The notes below the pieces were generated by a model, which saw only the letters and a list, made by a program, of their open reading frames with translations, had not been told where the DNA came from and did no database searches. A program made the position numbers and the translations under genes. From Deltaproteobacteria bacterium (GTDB taxonomy: Bacteria; Myxococcota_A; UBA9160; SZUA-336), in NCBI GenBank assembly GCA_029261925.1, contig JAJDAJ010000020.1:1-64000 (forward strand): 64,000 nt of DNA, in the 5' to 3' direction. Below are positions 29,887-48,473 of this stretch, one piece after another. Each line of letters begins with the position of its first letter. The stretch's first letter is position 1.

Positions 29887-30231
29887 CTACGGTAGCGCCT
29901 CTTCGCGAAGCTCCTCGGCACGGATGGCCAGGCGCTCCGACTCCTCGGCCATCGCCGCGGCGCGCATCGCCTGACGCCCGCGGGACAGGAGCTCCTCACC
30001 GCGCCGCCGGCGCTCGCGGCCGTCCTTGACCAGCGCCTTGCCGCGGTCGATGTCGCCATCGGCATCATCGACGATCTGCTGGCCCTGATTCATGAGACGG
30101 CGTCCCTCCTCGGCAGTGAGACGGTTGGCCGGGTTGAGGAACACGTCCGGTAGCTTCGGCATCGAGCTGCAGCCCATCAGGGCCGCACCCAGGACCAGCA
30201 GGGGGAGTGAGCGCGTCCAGGCGCGGCTCAC
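29887..30231 (-). CDS. Small lipoprotein with charged helical repeat region
   Basis: The 114-residue protein has a signal peptide ending in lipobox LMGC (Cys21), then SSMPKLPDVFLNPANRLTAEEG and a long Arg/Glu-rich helix with likely coiled-coil character. It should be anchored in the inner or outer membrane. The GTG start overlaps the stop of the upstream 95-residue coiled-coil gene by 4 bp, so they are coupled. Function is unknown. The pair resembles envelope-stress helper proteins. Confidence 0.7.
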   Translation of the reverse strand: MSRAWTRSLPLLVLGAALMGCSSMPKLPDVFLNPANRLTAEEGRRLMNQGQQIVDDADGDIDRGKALVKDGRERRRRGEELLSRGRQAMRAAAMAEESERLAIRAEELREEALP

Positions 30232-30515
30232 GCCTTGAACCTCGCGAAGAAGCCCTTCGCGGACTGCGAGAGATCGCCCCAGGCCTTCTCCGCATCGTCC
30301 TTGAGACCCTCCCAGGCGTCCTCGCCCGCCTCCGAGAGCCGTGCGAGCTTCGCCTTGGCCGCGTCGATCTTCTTCTCGAGGATGCCCATCTGCTCCTCGG
30401 TCTCGAGCCGGACATCTGCCGCGCTGCCCTTCGCGCGGGCGCGGGCCTGGTCGAGCCTGGCCTTCTGCTCGTCGATCTGAGCCGACAGCTTCTGCTGGTA
30501 GGCCTCCTTGCTCAT
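30228..30515 (-). CDS. Small coiled-coil protein
   Basis: The 95-residue soluble protein is almost wholly helical. It begins MSKEAYQQKLSAQIDEQKAR and continues with heptad-like KIDAAKAKLARLSEAGEDAW, ending DLSQSAKGFFARFKA. Similar short proteins occur near stress or membrane genes in proteobacteria, but no function is established. The start has GAAGGGAA upstream. It precedes and overlaps the lipoprotein gene, and lies 92 bp downstream of the diadenylate cyclase gene. Confidence 0.7.
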   Translation of the reverse strand: MSKEAYQQKLSAQIDEQKARLDQARARAKGSAADVRLETEEQMGILEKKIDAAKAKLARLSEAGEDAWEGLKDDAEKAWGDLSQSAKGFFARFKA

Positions 30516-30607: not shown

Positions 30608-31795
30608 TCACTCCGGTCCACCGCTCCCGCCCCCTGCCGATGCGAGCGAGAGGCGGACGCTCGGCGGCTCGACCTGGAGGAGCTCCAGCCGGGGAGGATG
30701 TCTGACGTCCGACGCCCGGATCTGGAAGGTCCGGCGGCCCAGGGCGGTGATCGCGCCGTCGAGGACCACCACCACCCTGCTGCCCGCGGACCGGTAAAAC
30801 GAGCGCCGCTCGCCCCGGAAGGACAGCGACACGTGGGAGGGCTCGACGGAACGCAGCTTCAGGTCGTCGGGGAGGTTCACGACCTCGACCGGGACGTCGA
30901 GCGAGCGATCGACCATCACGGACCCGGCGGAGAAGAAGAACCACAGGCCGCCGACCACGGCACCCGCGAGCGCCGCATCGGTCCAGTGCGCGCGGAGCAC
31001 CTCCAGCAGCGACTGTCCGACGTCGGATGCGTGTCGCGAGGTCCAGATCGCGGAGAGCAGCGGCTTCAGCTCGGCCACACGCTCCAGCGTGCGCAGGTGA
31101 CCGTCGCGCACCACGCTGATGTGACCGGTCTCCTCCGAGACGACCAGGCAGGTCGCGTCGCAGCGCTCGGCGAGGCCCAGGGCCGCGCTGTGCCGCGTGC
31201 CGCGATCGTCGAGCTGCTCGAAGTCCTGCGAGAGCGGCAGGTGGACCCCGAAGTGCGAGATACGCGAGTCCTGCAGCACCACCGCGCCGTCGTGACCGGG
31301 TGAGCTCGGGTCGAACAGGCTCTCGAGCAGGGGACGACTCAGGATCGCGTCGGCGAGAATCCCGCCGTCGACGTGTCGGTCCAGCGGGTCGTCGCCCGGG
31401 ATCACCAGCAGCGCGCCGATCCGCGCGCGCGACAGGTTGCTCAGACACTCGACGATGCTGTCGAGCGAGCCGCGCACGGGGGGCGCGGGAGGCGGCCGGC
31501 GCAGCACCCAGGCAGCCACGCGCTCGAACAGCTGCCGCAGCTCCTGCTGGAAGATCACGACGACGATGATCAGGAACACCGCCAGCGAGCCCTCGAACAG
31601 CCCGGTCAGCAGCGTGAGATCCAGCGCCCGCGCGGCGACGTAGACAGCGGCGAAGACGAGCAGCCCGATCGCCACGAATCCCGCCTGCGTGGAGCGCAGC
31701 CAGACCAGCAGCGCCGCCGCGAGCAGCGACACCAGGACGATGTCCAGGACCTCGGTCCAGCGCAGCTCCGGCCAGAGCTGGATCAGTCCGTCCAT
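30608..31795 (-). CDS. Diadenylate cyclase CdaA fused to a YbbR (CdaR-like) domain
   Basis: The 395-residue enzyme should make cyclic di-AMP from ATP. Three N-terminal transmembrane helices (about 15-35, 38-58 and 65-83) precede the DAC domain with GHDGAVV (DGA 169-171) and DRGTRHSAALG. The usual RHR motif reads RHS at 201-203. A fourth helix (275-293) leads to a single YbbR-like beta domain (about 298-385), containing VPVEVVNLPDDLKL and VEPSHVSLSFRGE. In Firmicutes, CdaA and the YbbR-repeat regulator CdaR are separate adjacent genes. Here they are one polypeptide. The ATG is the first in frame. Confidence 0.87.
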   Translation of the reverse strand: MDGLIQLWPELRWTEVLDIVLVSLLAAALLVWLRSTQAGFVAIGLLVFAAVYVAARALDLTLLTGLFEGSLAVFLIIVVVIFQQELRQLFERVAAWVLRRPPPAPPVRGSLDSIVECLSNLSRARIGALLVIPGDDPLDRHVDGGILADAILSRPLLESLFDPSSPGHDGAVVLQDSRISHFGVHLPLSQDFEQLDDRGTRHSAALGLAERCDATCLVVSEETGHISVVRDGHLRTLERVAELKPLLSAIWTSRHASDVGQSLLEVLRAHWTDAALAGAVVGGLWFFFSAGSVMVDRSLDVPVEVVNLPDDLKLRSVEPSHVSLSFRGERRSFYRSAGSRVVVVLDGAITALGRRTFQIRASDVRHPPRLELLQVEPPSVRLSLASAGGGSGGPE

Positions 31796-32039: not shown

Positions 32040-32642
32040 GTGGACAGCGAGGAAGAAGGGGAACACGGTCACGCCGGGATCGGAGCGGCAGAGCGCCGGC
32101 TCGTGCGGCGCGTCCAGGCGGAGCTGCCCCACGGGACGCAGGCCTTCCGCGAGCTCGTGGACGCCTACACGCCGCTGGTCTACGGCCGGGCCCTGCGCCT
32201 GCTGGCCTCACCCCACGACGCGGAGGAGGTCGTGCAGGACGTCTTCCTGCGCGTGTTCCGCTCGATCGAGCGCTTCCGCTTCGAGCGGCCTCTCTCGCAC
32301 TGGATCCAGACCATCACGACCAACGCGGCGCGCAACTTCCTGCGCGGCCGATACCGCGACGAGCGCAAACGCGCCGCGCTGGCGGCCTCCGCAGAGGGGC
32401 AGCTCGCGCGGCCGTCGAGCGACGGATCCGATCCGATCGGCTCGCGGGCCCTGGAGCGTGCGATGGAGACCCTCGAGCCGGGCACCCGGATCGCGATCGC
32501 GCTGCGCTACGTCGAGGAGCTCGGATACCCCGAGATTGCCCGGGAGCTGGGGATGAAGGAGTCGGCGGTGAAGATGCGCGTGCGACGGGGGATCGAGCGG
32601 CTCCGGCGGGCGATGGAGGAGCACACCGATGAGCCGGAATAG
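32040..32642 (+). CDS. ECF-type RNA polymerase sigma factor
   Basis: The 200-residue sigma-70-family protein contains region 2 (ELVDAYTPLVYGRALRLLASPHDAEEVVQDVFLRVF, about residues 40-75) and region 4 (LEPGTRIAIALRYVEELGYPEIARELGMKESAVKMRVRRG, about 145-185), with no region 3. The GTG start is preceded by AGGGAG five bases upstream, and a longer in-frame extension has no homology. The stop overlaps the next gene by 14 bp. The operon content suggests control of membrane or osmotic functions. Confidence 0.9.
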   Translation: MDSEEEGEHGHAGIGAAERRLVRRVQAELPHGTQAFRELVDAYTPLVYGRALRLLASPHDAEEVVQDVFLRVFRSIERFRFERPLSHWIQTITTNAARNFLRGRYRDERKRAALAASAEGQLARPSSDGSDPIGSRALERAMETLEPGTRIAIALRYVEELGYPEIARELGMKESAVKMRVRRGIERLRRAMEEHTDEPE

Positions 32643-32886
32643 CACGCGAGCACCGGCGTGGAACGAGGACGGGGTTCGATCCATGTTCGCGCCGCTCCGG
32701 GCACGCGAGGCCGCGCCTCCTCCCGACCTGCGCGAGCGCACCCTCGACCACCTCGAGATCGCCATCACCGCACGAGATCTGGTCGAGCTCGGGACCATCG
32801 TGATGGTCGTCGAGTTCCTCGGACCGGTCCTCGACCTCCTGGCCTTCACACTCGGGCTCGACGGGCAGGGAGGCAGCGTTGAATAG
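32629..32886 (+). CDS. Small single-helix protein, possible anti-sigma partner
   Basis: The 85-residue protein has a polar N-terminus (about 45 residues, including LRERTLDHLEIAITARDLVE) and one hydrophobic segment, GTIVMVVEFLGPVLDLLAFTL. It starts inside the 3' end of the ECF sigma gene and overlaps the next gene by 8 bp. Position and topology match membrane anti-sigma factors, but no zinc-anti-sigma HxxxCxxC motif is present. The anti-sigma idea rests on context only. Confidence 0.6.
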   Translation: MSRNSTRAPAWNEDGVRSMFAPLRAREAAPPPDLRERTLDHLEIAITARDLVELGTIVMVVEFLGPVLDLLAFTLGLDGQGGSVE

Positions 32887-33736
32887 CCTGTTCGACTCGG
32901 AAGCCCTCAGGGAGATCGTCGTCTCCGCGCTCTCGGAGCTCGGCACGGACCTGGTGGTCTTCGTCCCCAGGCTTCTCGGCGCGCTGCTGATCCTGCTGAT
33001 CGGCTGGGTGGTGGCACGTGTGGCGCAGGCGGTCGCCGCCGGGATACTGAGCCGCGCCGGGCTCGACGCCGCGGGCGAGCGGCTCGGCGTGGACAGCACG
33101 CTGCGCGGCTCCGGCATCGAGGCGCGCCCGTCGATGCTGATCGCGCGCCTGCTGTTCTGGCTGCTGATGCTCACGTTCCTGCTGTCGGCGGTCGAGACCC
33201 TGGGGCTGAGCGCGGTCACGATGACGATCGATCGCCTGATCGGCTACCTGCCGAACGTGATCGCCGCCGCCCTGATCGTCCTGGTCGGGCTGCTGACCGG
33301 TCGCTTCGCCGGGAACCTGGTCTCGTCGGCCGCCGCCGCGGCCCAGCTCCCCTACGCGCGGCACCTCGGCAGCGCGGCCCGGGCAGCGATCGGGATCGCC
33401 GTGATCGTCCTCTCGCTCGAGCAGCTCGGGGTCGACGCGGGCATCCTGATGTGGACCGTGATCACGCTGCTGGCGGCGGGGTCGCTGGGCCTCGGCCTGT
33501 CGTTCGCGCTGGGCTCTCGTGAGGTCGTGGGGTCGATCATCGCCGGCTACTACCTGCGCAAGAGCCTGCGCGAGGGGGGTACCGTCGTCGTGGACGGCCG
33601 TGAGGGGGTCCTGCAGCGGGTGGGGCCGATCGATACCGTGTTCCGCGGGGAGGAGCGTTCGTGGAGCGTTCCCAACGCCATCCTTCTGAGGACCATCGTC
33701 GATCGCCTGCCGCAGGCGGGGGGAGAAGCAGCGTGA
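32879..33736 (+). CDS. MscS-like small-conductance channel protein
   Basis: The 285-residue inner-membrane protein has about five hydrophobic helices (22-50, 87-108, 120-142, 165-183 and 187-212). The last is the Gly/Ala-rich pore-like helix AAGSLGLGLSFALGSREVVGSIIAGYYL. It is followed by a short MscS beta domain, EGGTVVVDGREGVLQRVGPIDTVF and SWSVPNAILLRTIVD. It lacks the large cytoplasmic alpha-beta vestibule of E. coli MscS. Membrane-tension or solute sensing is inferred. TTG with GGGAGG upstream is the start, placing it in the ECF sigma operon. Confidence 0.82.
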   Translation: MNSLFDSEALREIVVSALSELGTDLVVFVPRLLGALLILLIGWVVARVAQAVAAGILSRAGLDAAGERLGVDSTLRGSGIEARPSMLIARLLFWLLMLTFLLSAVETLGLSAVTMTIDRLIGYLPNVIAAALIVLVGLLTGRFAGNLVSSAAAAAQLPYARHLGSAARAAIGIAVIVLSLEQLGVDAGILMWTVITLLAAGSLGLGLSFALGSREVVGSIIAGYYLRKSLREGGTVVVDGREGVLQRVGPIDTVFRGEERSWSVPNAILLRTIVDRLPQAGGEAA

Positions 33737-45657: not shown

Positions 45658-47025
45658 ATGCACGCCAAGCGGTACGTCGTGATGGGCGCCGGCGAGGTCG
45701 GCAGCTACCTCGCCCGGACGCTCTCGGCCGAGGGCCACGAGGTGGTCCTGATCGACAGCGACCCCGCCAAGCGCCAGGTCGTGGAGGAGCAGCTCGACGC
45801 CAGCTTCGTGCTGGGCAACGGCACGCACATGCAGACGCTCGAGGCCGCCGAGGCCGGTGCCTGCGAGCTCTTCATCGCCGTGAGCTCCTCCGATGAGGCC
45901 AACCTGGCGGCGTCGCTCCTGGCCAAGCGCGCCGGCGCGGGCCGCACCGTCGTGCGGCTGGCCACGTCGGAGGACGTGACCCGCTACGGCCGGACCTACG
46001 AGCAGGCCTTCCAGGCCGATCTGCTGCTGTCCACGCAGCTGCTCACCACGACGCGGATCCTCAACCACGTGCTCGGCTACAACACGCTCGAGATCGAGTA
46101 CCTGGCCGGCGGCGCCCTGCAGGTGCGCCGGATCCACGTCGAGCCCGGGTCGGTGCTGCACCGCCAGCGGCTCGCCGACGTGGAGCTGCCGCGCGACAGC
46201 CTGGTGCTGGCCTTCATCTCGGGAAACCGGGTGGTCGTCCCCACGGGCTCCGATCGCGCGCAGCCGGGTGACGACGCCCTGGTGCTGGCCACCACCGAGG
46301 CCATCGACGAGGTCGAGCGCCGCGTCAGCCGCCACGCCCGGCGCCTGGGCCTGGTGGTGCTGGCCGGTGGCGGGGACACCGCCCACGCCGTGGCCGCGAG
46401 CCTGCGCCACGACGTGCGCACGCTGCGCATCATCGAGTCGAATCTGGGTCGCGCCGAGGAGCTGGCGGCGGCCTTCCCGGACTACGAGATCGTGCACGCC
46501 GACGCGACCGACATGTCGGCGCTGGCGGCCCAGGGCGTGGGCAGCGCGCAGTCGTTCATCGCGCTGACGGGCCACGACGAGGCCAACCTGATGGCCTGCC
46601 TGCTCGCGCAGGAGCTGGGTGCGCGCCAGCTCACCGCGCTGGTGCAGAAGAGCGAGACCTCCACGCTCTGGCACAAGGTCGGCCTGCTCGACATCGTGTC
46701 GCCGCGGCTGCTCGCCGGCGAGCGCATCCGCAGCTACATCGACAGCGGCTACGAGGGGCGCATCATCTCGTTCGAGAACGGCGCCGCGCAGTTCGTGCAG
46801 CGGCGCGTCGAGCAGCACAGCCCGACCGCCGGGAGCCAGCTCGCCGACGTGCAGATCCCCCAGGGGCTGATCGTGGCCGCCGTCCTGCGCGGGGGCCGCG
46901 CCGTGATCCCGCGCGGCGACCAGCGGCTGCAGGTCGGCGACGACGTGATCCTGTTCGTCCACGAGTCCGAGGCGAAGCTCGCTCACCTCCTCTTTCCCGG
47001 CAGGGACGACGCCCCCGGGGCCTGA
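45658..47025 (+). CDS. trkA: Trk potassium uptake regulatory subunit TrkA
   Basis: The 455-residue cytoplasmic protein has two RCK modules. The first nucleotide-binding motif is VVMGAGEVGSYLARTLSAEGHEVVLIDSD (residues 4-32), with the second repeat starting near residue 230 (LVVLAGGGDTAHAVAASL). Each is followed by an RCK_C domain. It binds NAD(H) or ATP and gates TrkH. RCK_C domains are known c-di-AMP receptors in some bacteria, which is relevant to the diadenylate cyclase in this window. The start has GGAG upstream. trkH follows 5 bp later. Confidence 0.93.
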   Translation: MHAKRYVVMGAGEVGSYLARTLSAEGHEVVLIDSDPAKRQVVEEQLDASFVLGNGTHMQTLEAAEAGACELFIAVSSSDEANLAASLLAKRAGAGRTVVRLATSEDVTRYGRTYEQAFQADLLLSTQLLTTTRILNHVLGYNTLEIEYLAGGALQVRRIHVEPGSVLHRQRLADVELPRDSLVLAFISGNRVVVPTGSDRAQPGDDALVLATTEAIDEVERRVSRHARRLGLVVLAGGGDTAHAVAASLRHDVRTLRIIESNLGRAEELAAAFPDYEIVHADATDMSALAAQGVGSAQSFIALTGHDEANLMACLLAQELGARQLTALVQKSETSTLWHKVGLLDIVSPRLLAGERIRSYIDSGYEGRIISFENGAAQFVQRRVEQHSPTAGSQLADVQIPQGLIVAAVLRGGRAVIPRGDQRLQVGDDVILFVHESEAKLAHLLFPGRDDAPGA

Positions 47026-47030
47026 CGGCC

Positions 47031-48473
47031 ATGAATCGCGGCCGCGTCCTGCACATCCTGGGGCTCCTGCTGCTCGTGCTCGCCGGCGCGCAGCTGCTGC
47101 CCCTGCTCTGGTGCCTGACCCCCGCGACCGCCGCCTCGGCGCCCGGATTCGCGACCGGCGTCGCGGCGACCGCCCTGCTGGGCGCGGTGTTCCGGTGGCT
47201 CGGCGATCGCGAGGGCGAGCTGTACCGCCGCGACGGGGTGCTGATCGTGGTCGGCGCCTGGGTACTGGCCTCGCTCAGCGGCGCGATCCCCTACCTGGTC
47301 ACCGGCGCGATCCCCGACCCGGTGGACGCGCTGTTCGAGTCCGCCTCGGGGTTCACCACGACCGGGGCCTCGATCCTCACCGACATCGAGGCGCTCCCGC
47401 GGCCGCTGCTGTTCTGGCGCAGCTTCACGCAGTGGCTCGGGGGCATCGGCATCGTGGTGCTCTTCGTCGCCCTGCTGTCCGAGCTCGGGCCCGGCGCGCG
47501 CTTCCTGTTCAAGCTCGAGGTACCCGGGCCGAAGGCCGAGATCCTGCACCCGCGCGTGCAGGAGACGGCCGCGGCACTGGCGCGCATCTACGGCGTGCTG
47601 ACCCTGCTGCAGATCGCGGTGCTGCTCGTGCTCGGCCTCGACCTCTTCGACGCCGTCACCCACACCTTCTCGACGGTCTCGACGGGGGGCTTCTCGCCGC
47701 ACGCCGACTCCGTGGGGCACTTCGGTTCCGCCGTGCAGCTGACGATCGTGCTGTTCATGCTGGCCGCCGGCATCAACTTCTCGCTGTACCACACGCTGCT
47801 CCGGCGTCGCGATCCGCGCGTGCTGCGCGACGTGGAGCTGCGCGTTTACCTGGTGCTCGTGATCGCGGCCAGCGTGGTGGTCGCGCTCGACCTGCTGTTT
47901 GCCGATCGGGGCGCCGGCGTGGCCGTCGCGATCGACGCGCTGTTCGCGGTCGTCTCGGTCATCACGACCACCGGCTTCGCGACCGCGGACTTCGCCACCT
48001 GGCCCGGGCTGGCGCAGGCGGTACTGCTCGCGCTGATGCTCGCGGGCGGCTGTGCCGGCTCGACGGCCGGCGGCGCCAAGATCGTTCGCGTGCTGATCGC
48101 CTGGCGGGCCGCGATGCGCGAGGTGCGGCTGACCTTCAACCCGGCTTCGGTGATCGCCGTCGTGGTGGGCCGCGACGTCGTGCCCGAGTCCTCGGTGCGC
48201 AGCGTCGTGGCGCTCCTGGTGCTCTGGATGCTGGCGTGGGGTGCGGGCGCCCTGGCGCTGAGCGTGGGCGACCCCGACATCGCAACGGCGGCCAGCGCGT
48301 CGATCGCGACCCTGTCGAACGTCGGTCCGGGCCTGGGCCTGGTCGGCCCGTACGGCGGCTTCGCCTTCTTCGCACCGTGGCAGAAGTGCGTGATCGTCGG
48401 GCTGATGTGGCTCGGGCGCCTGGAGTTCTTCGCCCTGCTCGCCCTGCTCCAGCCGCGCTTCTGGCGCGCCTGA
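47031..48473 (+). CDS. trkH: Trk potassium channel subunit TrkH
   Basis: The 480-residue polytopic membrane protein of the SKT superfamily has four P-loop-containing repeats with selectivity-filter-like sequences: [34 protein letters not shown] and [11 protein letters not shown]. The [15 protein letters not shown] segment matches the flexible intramembrane loop of TrkH. It is length-typical and co-transcribed with trkA. The pair mediates Na+/H+-linked or channel-like K+ uptake. Confidence 0.95.

Follow-up and report, generated by a model that had tools for sequence, protein, structure and literature searches.

CdaA-YbbR fusion proteins form a widespread and apparently unstudied branch of diadenylate cyclase-type enzymes

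A single gene in the stretch of DNA analysed here (the window: 64,000 nucleotides, positions 1 to 64,000 of contig JAJDAJ010000020.1, assembly GCA_029261925.1, from a Deltaproteobacteria bacterium) encodes a CdaA-type membrane region and DAC domain followed by a fourth transmembrane helix and a YbbR domain, placing the counterparts of CdaA and CdaR in one chain. Its relatives have an active-site signature of their own and constitute a widespread, apparently unstudied branch of diadenylate cyclase-type enzymes. We consider it probable (roughly 60%) that the protein is a one-piece CdaA-CdaR: an active c-di-AMP synthase that is gated by a periplasmic YbbR domain, is uncoupled from GlmM and serves cation and osmotic homeostasis. 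The gene, its parts and its nearest neighbours are located as follows.

30608..31795 (-): CdaA-YbbR fusion gene (three transmembrane helices, DAC, fourth transmembrane helix, YbbR), 395 aa
31538..31768 (-): CdaA_N membrane region, residues 10-86 (Pfam CdaA_N, E 8.7e-7)
31097..31450 (-): DAC domain, residues 116-233 (Pfam DAC, E 8e-34; same coordinates in the genome profile search)
31283..31294 (-): HDGA catalytic motif, residues 168-171, with Gly167 before it (fused-clade signature)
31187..31195 (-): R-H-S, residues R201-H202-S203, where RHR is expected
31127..31138 (-): SEET motif, residues 220-223; SEER/SEEK in most of the fused clade
30932..30985 (-): fourth transmembrane helix, residues 271-288 (AlphaFold2 model)
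30623..30916 (-): YbbR domain, residues 294-391 (5hqh, E 3e-5; Z 10.5; tail profile matches stand-alone CdaR)
30228..30515 (-): sll1863-family stress response protein, next gene downstream (NCBIfam NF052504, E 2.1e-24)
32070..32642 (+): ECF sigma factor, divergent neighbour
32879..33736 (+): mechanosensitive-channel-type membrane protein, divergent neighbour (Pfam MS_channel_1st_1, E 1.7e-21)

The fusion gene has an ATG start and a single open frame. Its N-terminal region scored 29.5 bits against a Pfam CdaA_N cut-off of 23.8, was found in 51 of 51 family members, and was modelled by AlphaFold2 with helices at residues 13-35, 39-57 and 61-81. The DAC domain (PF02457) was likewise over threshold (116.2 bits, cut-off 27), phmmer matched CdaA structures to the protein over residues 15-251, and residues 102-256 of the AlphaFold2 model (mean pLDDT 86.8, pTM 0.62) aligned with the DAC domains of CdaA and CdaM at a Z of about 25 (VIA-align). 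The protein thus resembles CdaA (DacA; TIGR00159 / PF19293 + PF02457) in its three-helix CdaA_N region, its DAC fold, HDGA, the Arg and His of RHR, and SEE. Unlike CdaA, it falls below the TIGR00159 cut-off, belongs to a separate clade, has a Gly before HDGA and RHS in place of RHR, carries a fourth transmembrane helix with a fused YbbR domain, and has no GlmM gene next door. CdaS, CdaM, DisA and DacZ have the DAC domain in common with it and give weaker matches; their N-terminal regions differ from that of the window protein.

On the window protein alone, Pfam YbbR (PF07949) gave no match. A profile of the 51-member family matched the YbbR domain of Listeria Lmo2119 (5hqh) over profile positions 296-393, as well as a second solved YbbR domain (2l3u, E 1.6e-4), and 30 of the 51 members matched Pfam YbbR individually, as did the paralogue of the window gene on contig C110. 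Moreover, a profile of the C-terminal part of the fusion matched the stand-alone CdaR encoded next to canonical cdaA, including the CdaR of the same genome (L001, E 1.5e-9). In the model a beta-rich domain occupies residues 294-386, and residues 294-391 aligned with the YbbR domains 5hqh and 3lyw (VIA-align, Z 10.5 as listed). The first-pass annotation, which had proposed a CdaA-type membrane and DAC region followed by another helix and one YbbR-like domain and had named the C-terminal match to YbbR profiles as its check, is therefore borne out by Pfam, profile and model. The tail is like CdaR in having one transmembrane helix and then a YbbR domain of the same fold, and unlike it in not being a separate protein and in having one YbbR domain. 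If, as in CdaA, three transmembrane helices precede a cytoplasmic DAC domain, the fourth would leave YbbR on the periplasmic side, like that of CdaR, an extracytoplasmic location predicted from the number of helices. This architecture fits the idea, also raised at first pass, that the protein is a candidate self-regulated sensor, with a YbbR/CdaR-type domain beyond its fourth helix.

DAC domains were gathered from a scan of named genomes (57 loci), from searches of 17 of those genomes and of 59 genomes, and from fetched stretches, yielding 128 distinct domains, of which 126, from many phyla, were analysed after L096 and L097 had been set aside. The latter two, from Syntrophaceae, are of another DAC type of about 293 aa, without HDG and with GSRHIAAAG (RHI, the last Arg absent). 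We defined a canonical class by [LIM]HDG with RHR (n=40, none fused) and a fused class by Gly before HDG (n=86). In an unrooted tree the 40 and the 86 were separated by one branch with an SH-aLRT of 100, which was retained when columns 167, 203 and 223 were removed. A one-frame fusion with YbbR was found in 79 of the 86 distinct fused-class sequences. The other seven comprise L063 and L158, at contig ends, and five short proteins, of which L052 and L057 stop before YbbR. The remaining three (L140, L145 and L161) are RHS-type proteins from the same family as the window's genome that end just after the fourth helix; downstream of them no YbbR was found in any frame, nor any remnant, so the domain appears dispensable in some members. 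No separate YbbR gene was found near the short relatives L052, L054, L057, L140, L145 and L161. Fusions from Syntrophaceae and Smithellaceae are about 90 residues longer (~485 aa), with a tail that perhaps holds a second YbbR domain.

These data bear on whether the fusion is real. The source is a metagenome-assembled genome (MAG; 5.5 Mb, 95.3% complete) with 5.07% estimated contamination, a point that would speak for two genes having been joined by misassembly or a frameshift. We give that explanation practically no credence, since the same single frame recurs in 79 of 86 distinct sequences from many assemblies, including that of a named strain, Desulfuromusa kysingii DSM 7343. The frameshift in relatives that the annotation had named as a refutation was not seen, and the architecture that it proposed seeking in other phyla is present in many.

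The fused class often accompanies a canonical enzyme. Both kinds occurred together in 10 of 17 genomes searched for DACs, and among 59 genomes (the source MAG and 58 relatives) DACs were found in 57, many with exactly two: one strong canonical match and one weaker, typically in an open reading frame of about 400 aa. Only a fused-class DAC was seen in three genomes (G006, G012 and G017, two of them named Elusimicrobia), and in all three a DHH gene lies just downstream of it. The source MAG has four DAC genes, one canonical and three fusions (RHS in the window, RHA on C110, RHT on C19). The canonical cluster, on C75, reads tilS, ftsH, cdaA (RHR), cdaR, glmM (tilS, ftsH and glmM named by eye); it holds the same two functions as the fusion, but in two genes plus glmM, whereas fused loci have neither. 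The three fusions are not together in the tree: that on C19 groups with L053 and MAGs of the same family (starred support 99), that on C110 with Myxococcota-labelled MAGs (starred support 96), and the window gene, without starred support, lies close to RHS proteins from MAGs labelled Binatia and Deltaproteobacteria. TIGR00159 has a cut-off of 188.8 bits; the canonical protein scored 233.2 bits, the window protein 171.3 and its paralogues 158.2 and 139.2, so that by NCBIfam none of the three fusions is a TIGR00159 CdaA; and as the DAC profile score is reached although RHR is absent, the window protein is best filed as a DAC-domain protein rather than a proven cyclase. Searches of this MAG found no c-di-AMP riboswitch (RF00379) and no DHH-family match at E 1e-3 (no GdpP/NrnA-type protein and no RecJ; 13 of 14 control genomes match), and one 7TM-HD (PgpH-type) match, on C104.

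RHS in place of RHR was read correctly at first pass (residues 201-203). Across the fused class, H168, D169, G170, R201, H202, S220, E221 and E222 are invariant in 86 of 86 sequences, and Gly167 precedes HDGA in every one. Residue 203 is Arg in all 40 canonical domains, and A (47), T (22), S (13) or R (4) in the 86; residue 223 is Thr in 34 of 40 canonical domains, and R (73), K (9), T (3) or G (1) in the fused class. Residue 185 is His in 76 of 86, and residue 200, before RH, is T in 66 and L in 20. Because D, R, H and SEE never vary across the class, RHS is a clade signature, and simple decay of the motif is not favoured; to judge from these sequences, the small residue at 203 is better explained by an active-site design particular to the clade than by a defect. 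The suggestion that RHS might mean altered activity consequently holds in part: the last Arg is indeed absent, but this is not peculiar to one gene, a small residue being the rule of the clade (82/86). In the literature searched we found no mutants of the last Arg of RHR alone. An Arg within the GXRHRXA motif of Leptospira CdaA, numbered R203 in that protein, is essential, and changing the whole motif from RHR to AAA abolished c-di-AMP synthesis in the DisA-type DacA Rv3586 and in CdaS, according to the sections consulted of PMC3328451 and PMC4568413, respectively.

When residues 203 and 223 are taken as a pair, 78 fused-class sequences combine a small residue with Arg or Lys, four have Arg with Arg or Lys, and four have a small residue with Thr or Gly. 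The double charge (RHR with SEER/SEEK) occurs in Planctomycetota and in a Patescibacteria MAG, and the tree shows three changes for R203 and five for R/K223. One hypothesis is that position 223 acquired a positive charge first and position 203 lost its own afterwards, a relocation suggested by the alignment and a few evolutionary events. Such compensation is not general, because four members, namely the window protein, D. kysingii (L056), L039 and L042, have no Arg or Lys at either position. The pair S203 and T223 is confined to the window protein (1/86), which also sits on a long branch (0.83 in the DAC tree) and is accompanied in the MAG by three other DACs. These features might point to a copy with little or no cyclase activity, retained to bind nucleotide or to dimerise as a regulator of either the canonical CdaA or the two paralogues. 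We think this unlikely: its catalytic D, R, H and SEE are intact, as are its transmembrane and YbbR regions, T223 is also found in canonical enzymes, and D. kysingii has A203 with T223.

A further alternative is that the clade is active with a product other than, or besides, c-di-AMP, such as a linear or mixed dinucleotide. It is raised by the rewiring of phosphate-side residues (RH[AST], SEER/K, and Leu before RH in 20/86), and by the clustering of class-specific changes round the nucleotide (167, 185, 200, 203 and 223). S. aureus DacA has a Thr in front of RHR that contacts the phosphates, and a Tyr stacked on adenine; by alignment these would correspond to residues 200 and 185, the latter being the putative adenine-stacking Tyr position of the Listeria enzyme too. 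HDG, R, H and SEE are nevertheless all kept, and the DHH gene that adjoins some members is of the kind acting on c-di-AMP or pApA, which makes a different product improbable. An active c-di-AMP synthase is the reading we retain for the clade, on three grounds: the remaining catalytic residues do not vary, the genomes with only fused-class DACs have DHH genes, and the neighbours described below fit such a role. The argument from fused-only genomes is a weak one, since these genomes may be incomplete and the DAC of G017 (L057) is without YbbR.

The two classes also differ in their gene neighbours. A separate YbbR frame accompanies 44 of 45 canonical loci and none of 114 fused loci (loci, not distinct sequences), and a GlmM gene 41 of 45 and none of 114; these absences are the more telling because most canonical loci reach only 1.5 kb on each side and fused ones often extend further. 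Genes for MgtE, CorA, CNNM/CorC or DHH adjoin, on the same strand, 19 of 86 fused-class DACs and 0 of 40 canonical ones (Fisher p 4e-4, with stop-to-stop frames within 150 bases counted, families picked after their recurrence had been seen and sequences treated as independent), leaving 67 of the 86 without any such neighbour. The family identities come from Pfam on one or two representatives each. In 12 of the 19 a transporter lies directly beside the cyclase: MgtE in L020, L037, L044, L061, L062 and L067 (records named Myxococcota or Deltaproteobacteria, Omnitrophota and Planctomycetota), CorA in L036, L041 and L065, and CNNM in L031, L035 and L159, with a CorA gene preceding CNNM in L031. 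In the other seven (L022, L024, L026, L030, L050, L052 and L057) a DHH gene is directly downstream, followed by a CNNM gene in L026, L030 and L050; in L026, Pfam finds a TrkA_C (RCK_C) domain in the CNNM protein. Among PDB entries, the DHH neighbour is related to Rv2837c, to NrnA and to a 'phosphodiesterase acting on cyclic dinucleotides'; its best NCBIfam match is a Mn-dependent pyrophosphatase model, far below cut-off.

Published work connects several of these families to c-di-AMP. As reported in the sections consulted of PMC8844918, B. subtilis MgtE is bound by c-di-AMP, whose level varies with Mg2+ in osmoadaptation, and RCK_C (TrkA_C) is a domain often bound by the nucleotide. For Borrelia turicatae, the part consulted of PMC8316131 reports a cdaA mutant with a missense mutation in MgtE, and it also cites c-di-AMP-MgtE binding. 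The neighbours of the fused class suggest that c-di-AMP and magnesium transport are linked in a dedicated way outside Firmicutes, which the named strain D. kysingii makes testable.

Adjacency of cdaA and cdaR in 44 of 45 canonical loci makes fusion an easy step, and the fused protein might then be merely a second housekeeping CdaA-CdaR, joined by chance and with no special role. That account is quite improbable, as the fused clade occurs together with canonical CdaA in 10 of 17 genomes, shows an active-site signature and neighbours of its own, and never has GlmM at its loci. More tentatively, we entertain a stronger proposal in which the clade would make up a second class of membrane diadenylate cyclase with a function of its own, apart from the CdaA-CdaR-GlmM module that is coupled to the cell wall: a one-protein transmembrane receptor-cyclase for Mg2+/K+ homeostasis. 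Its RHR charge would have moved to the SEET position through RHR+SEER/SEEK intermediates, and some members, the window's included, would since have lost the second charge.

For the one-piece CdaA-CdaR that we favour, a mechanism can be sketched in which catalysis, product, ligand, topology, sensing and physiological role are inferred from the observed architecture, clade, conservation and gene neighbours. Three N-terminal helices and a cytoplasmic DAC domain would lead through the fourth helix into a periplasmic YbbR domain; a head-to-head pair of DAC domains would condense ATP to c-di-AMP; and YbbR would read an envelope or ionic cue and gate the DAC arrangement through the fourth helix. The protein's clade is marked by an active-site signature of its own: Gly before HDGA, a small residue at the end of RHR and, though not in the window member, Arg or Lys for the Thr of SEET. 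In most genomes examined it accompanies canonical CdaA-CdaR-GlmM, and its role is most likely in cation and osmotic homeostasis.

We found no description of a CdaA-YbbR fusion in the literature searched, though a review of DAC architectures (Galperin 2023, 'All DACs in a row') may list it; nor is it described in the sections consulted of PMC6368335, PMC8573169, PMC8316131, PMC9259658, PMC3814617 and PMC6398277. What sets the protein apart from known systems is the fusion of known partners, the distinct active-site signature and the other gene partners. In 2021 the control of CdaA by CdaR was described as unclear (in the part consulted of PMC8573169), and a single chain fixes both the stoichiometry and the contact of the two, so that the complex is open to study as one protein. 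In addition, the clade calls into question RHR as the diagnostic motif of diadenylate cyclases: searches or annotations that require it would overlook or misjudge a widespread group.

Other genes recur near fused cyclases. GlgB-type branching-enzyme genes (alpha-amylase family) occur in L011, L015, L016, L022, L023, L045 and L062, at several of these loci immediately before the cyclase or a short way after it, and perhaps hint at trehalose or glycogen metabolism. A gene of metallo-beta-lactamase fold follows the cyclase by about 10-15 bp in L043 (3691-4653) and L051 (3493-4431) and could encode a phosphodiesterase. A rubrerythrin-like gene and an NtrC-type regulator (by eye) are conserved near the ~485-aa Syntrophaceae/Smithellaceae fusions (L033, L036, L038, L039, L041, L047, L059, L065 and L066).

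In the window itself, the sll1863-family gene starts about 90 bp after the fusion stop, on the same strand, and is a possible operon partner. Downstream of it lies a small predicted lipoprotein (by eye; 29887-30231, minus strand) with no family match, and these three minus-strand genes could form one operon. The divergent mechanosensitive-channel-type gene scored 62.6 bits against NCBIfam msc, under the cut-off of 100. Some 14 kb from the fusion, a TrkA-type K+ uptake regulator with two TrkA_C matches (45658-47025, plus strand) is followed by a TrkH-like membrane protein (by eye; 47031-48473, plus strand). The window's neighbours are suggestive of ion and osmotic physiology, and are only loosely of the transporter kind seen in the clade.
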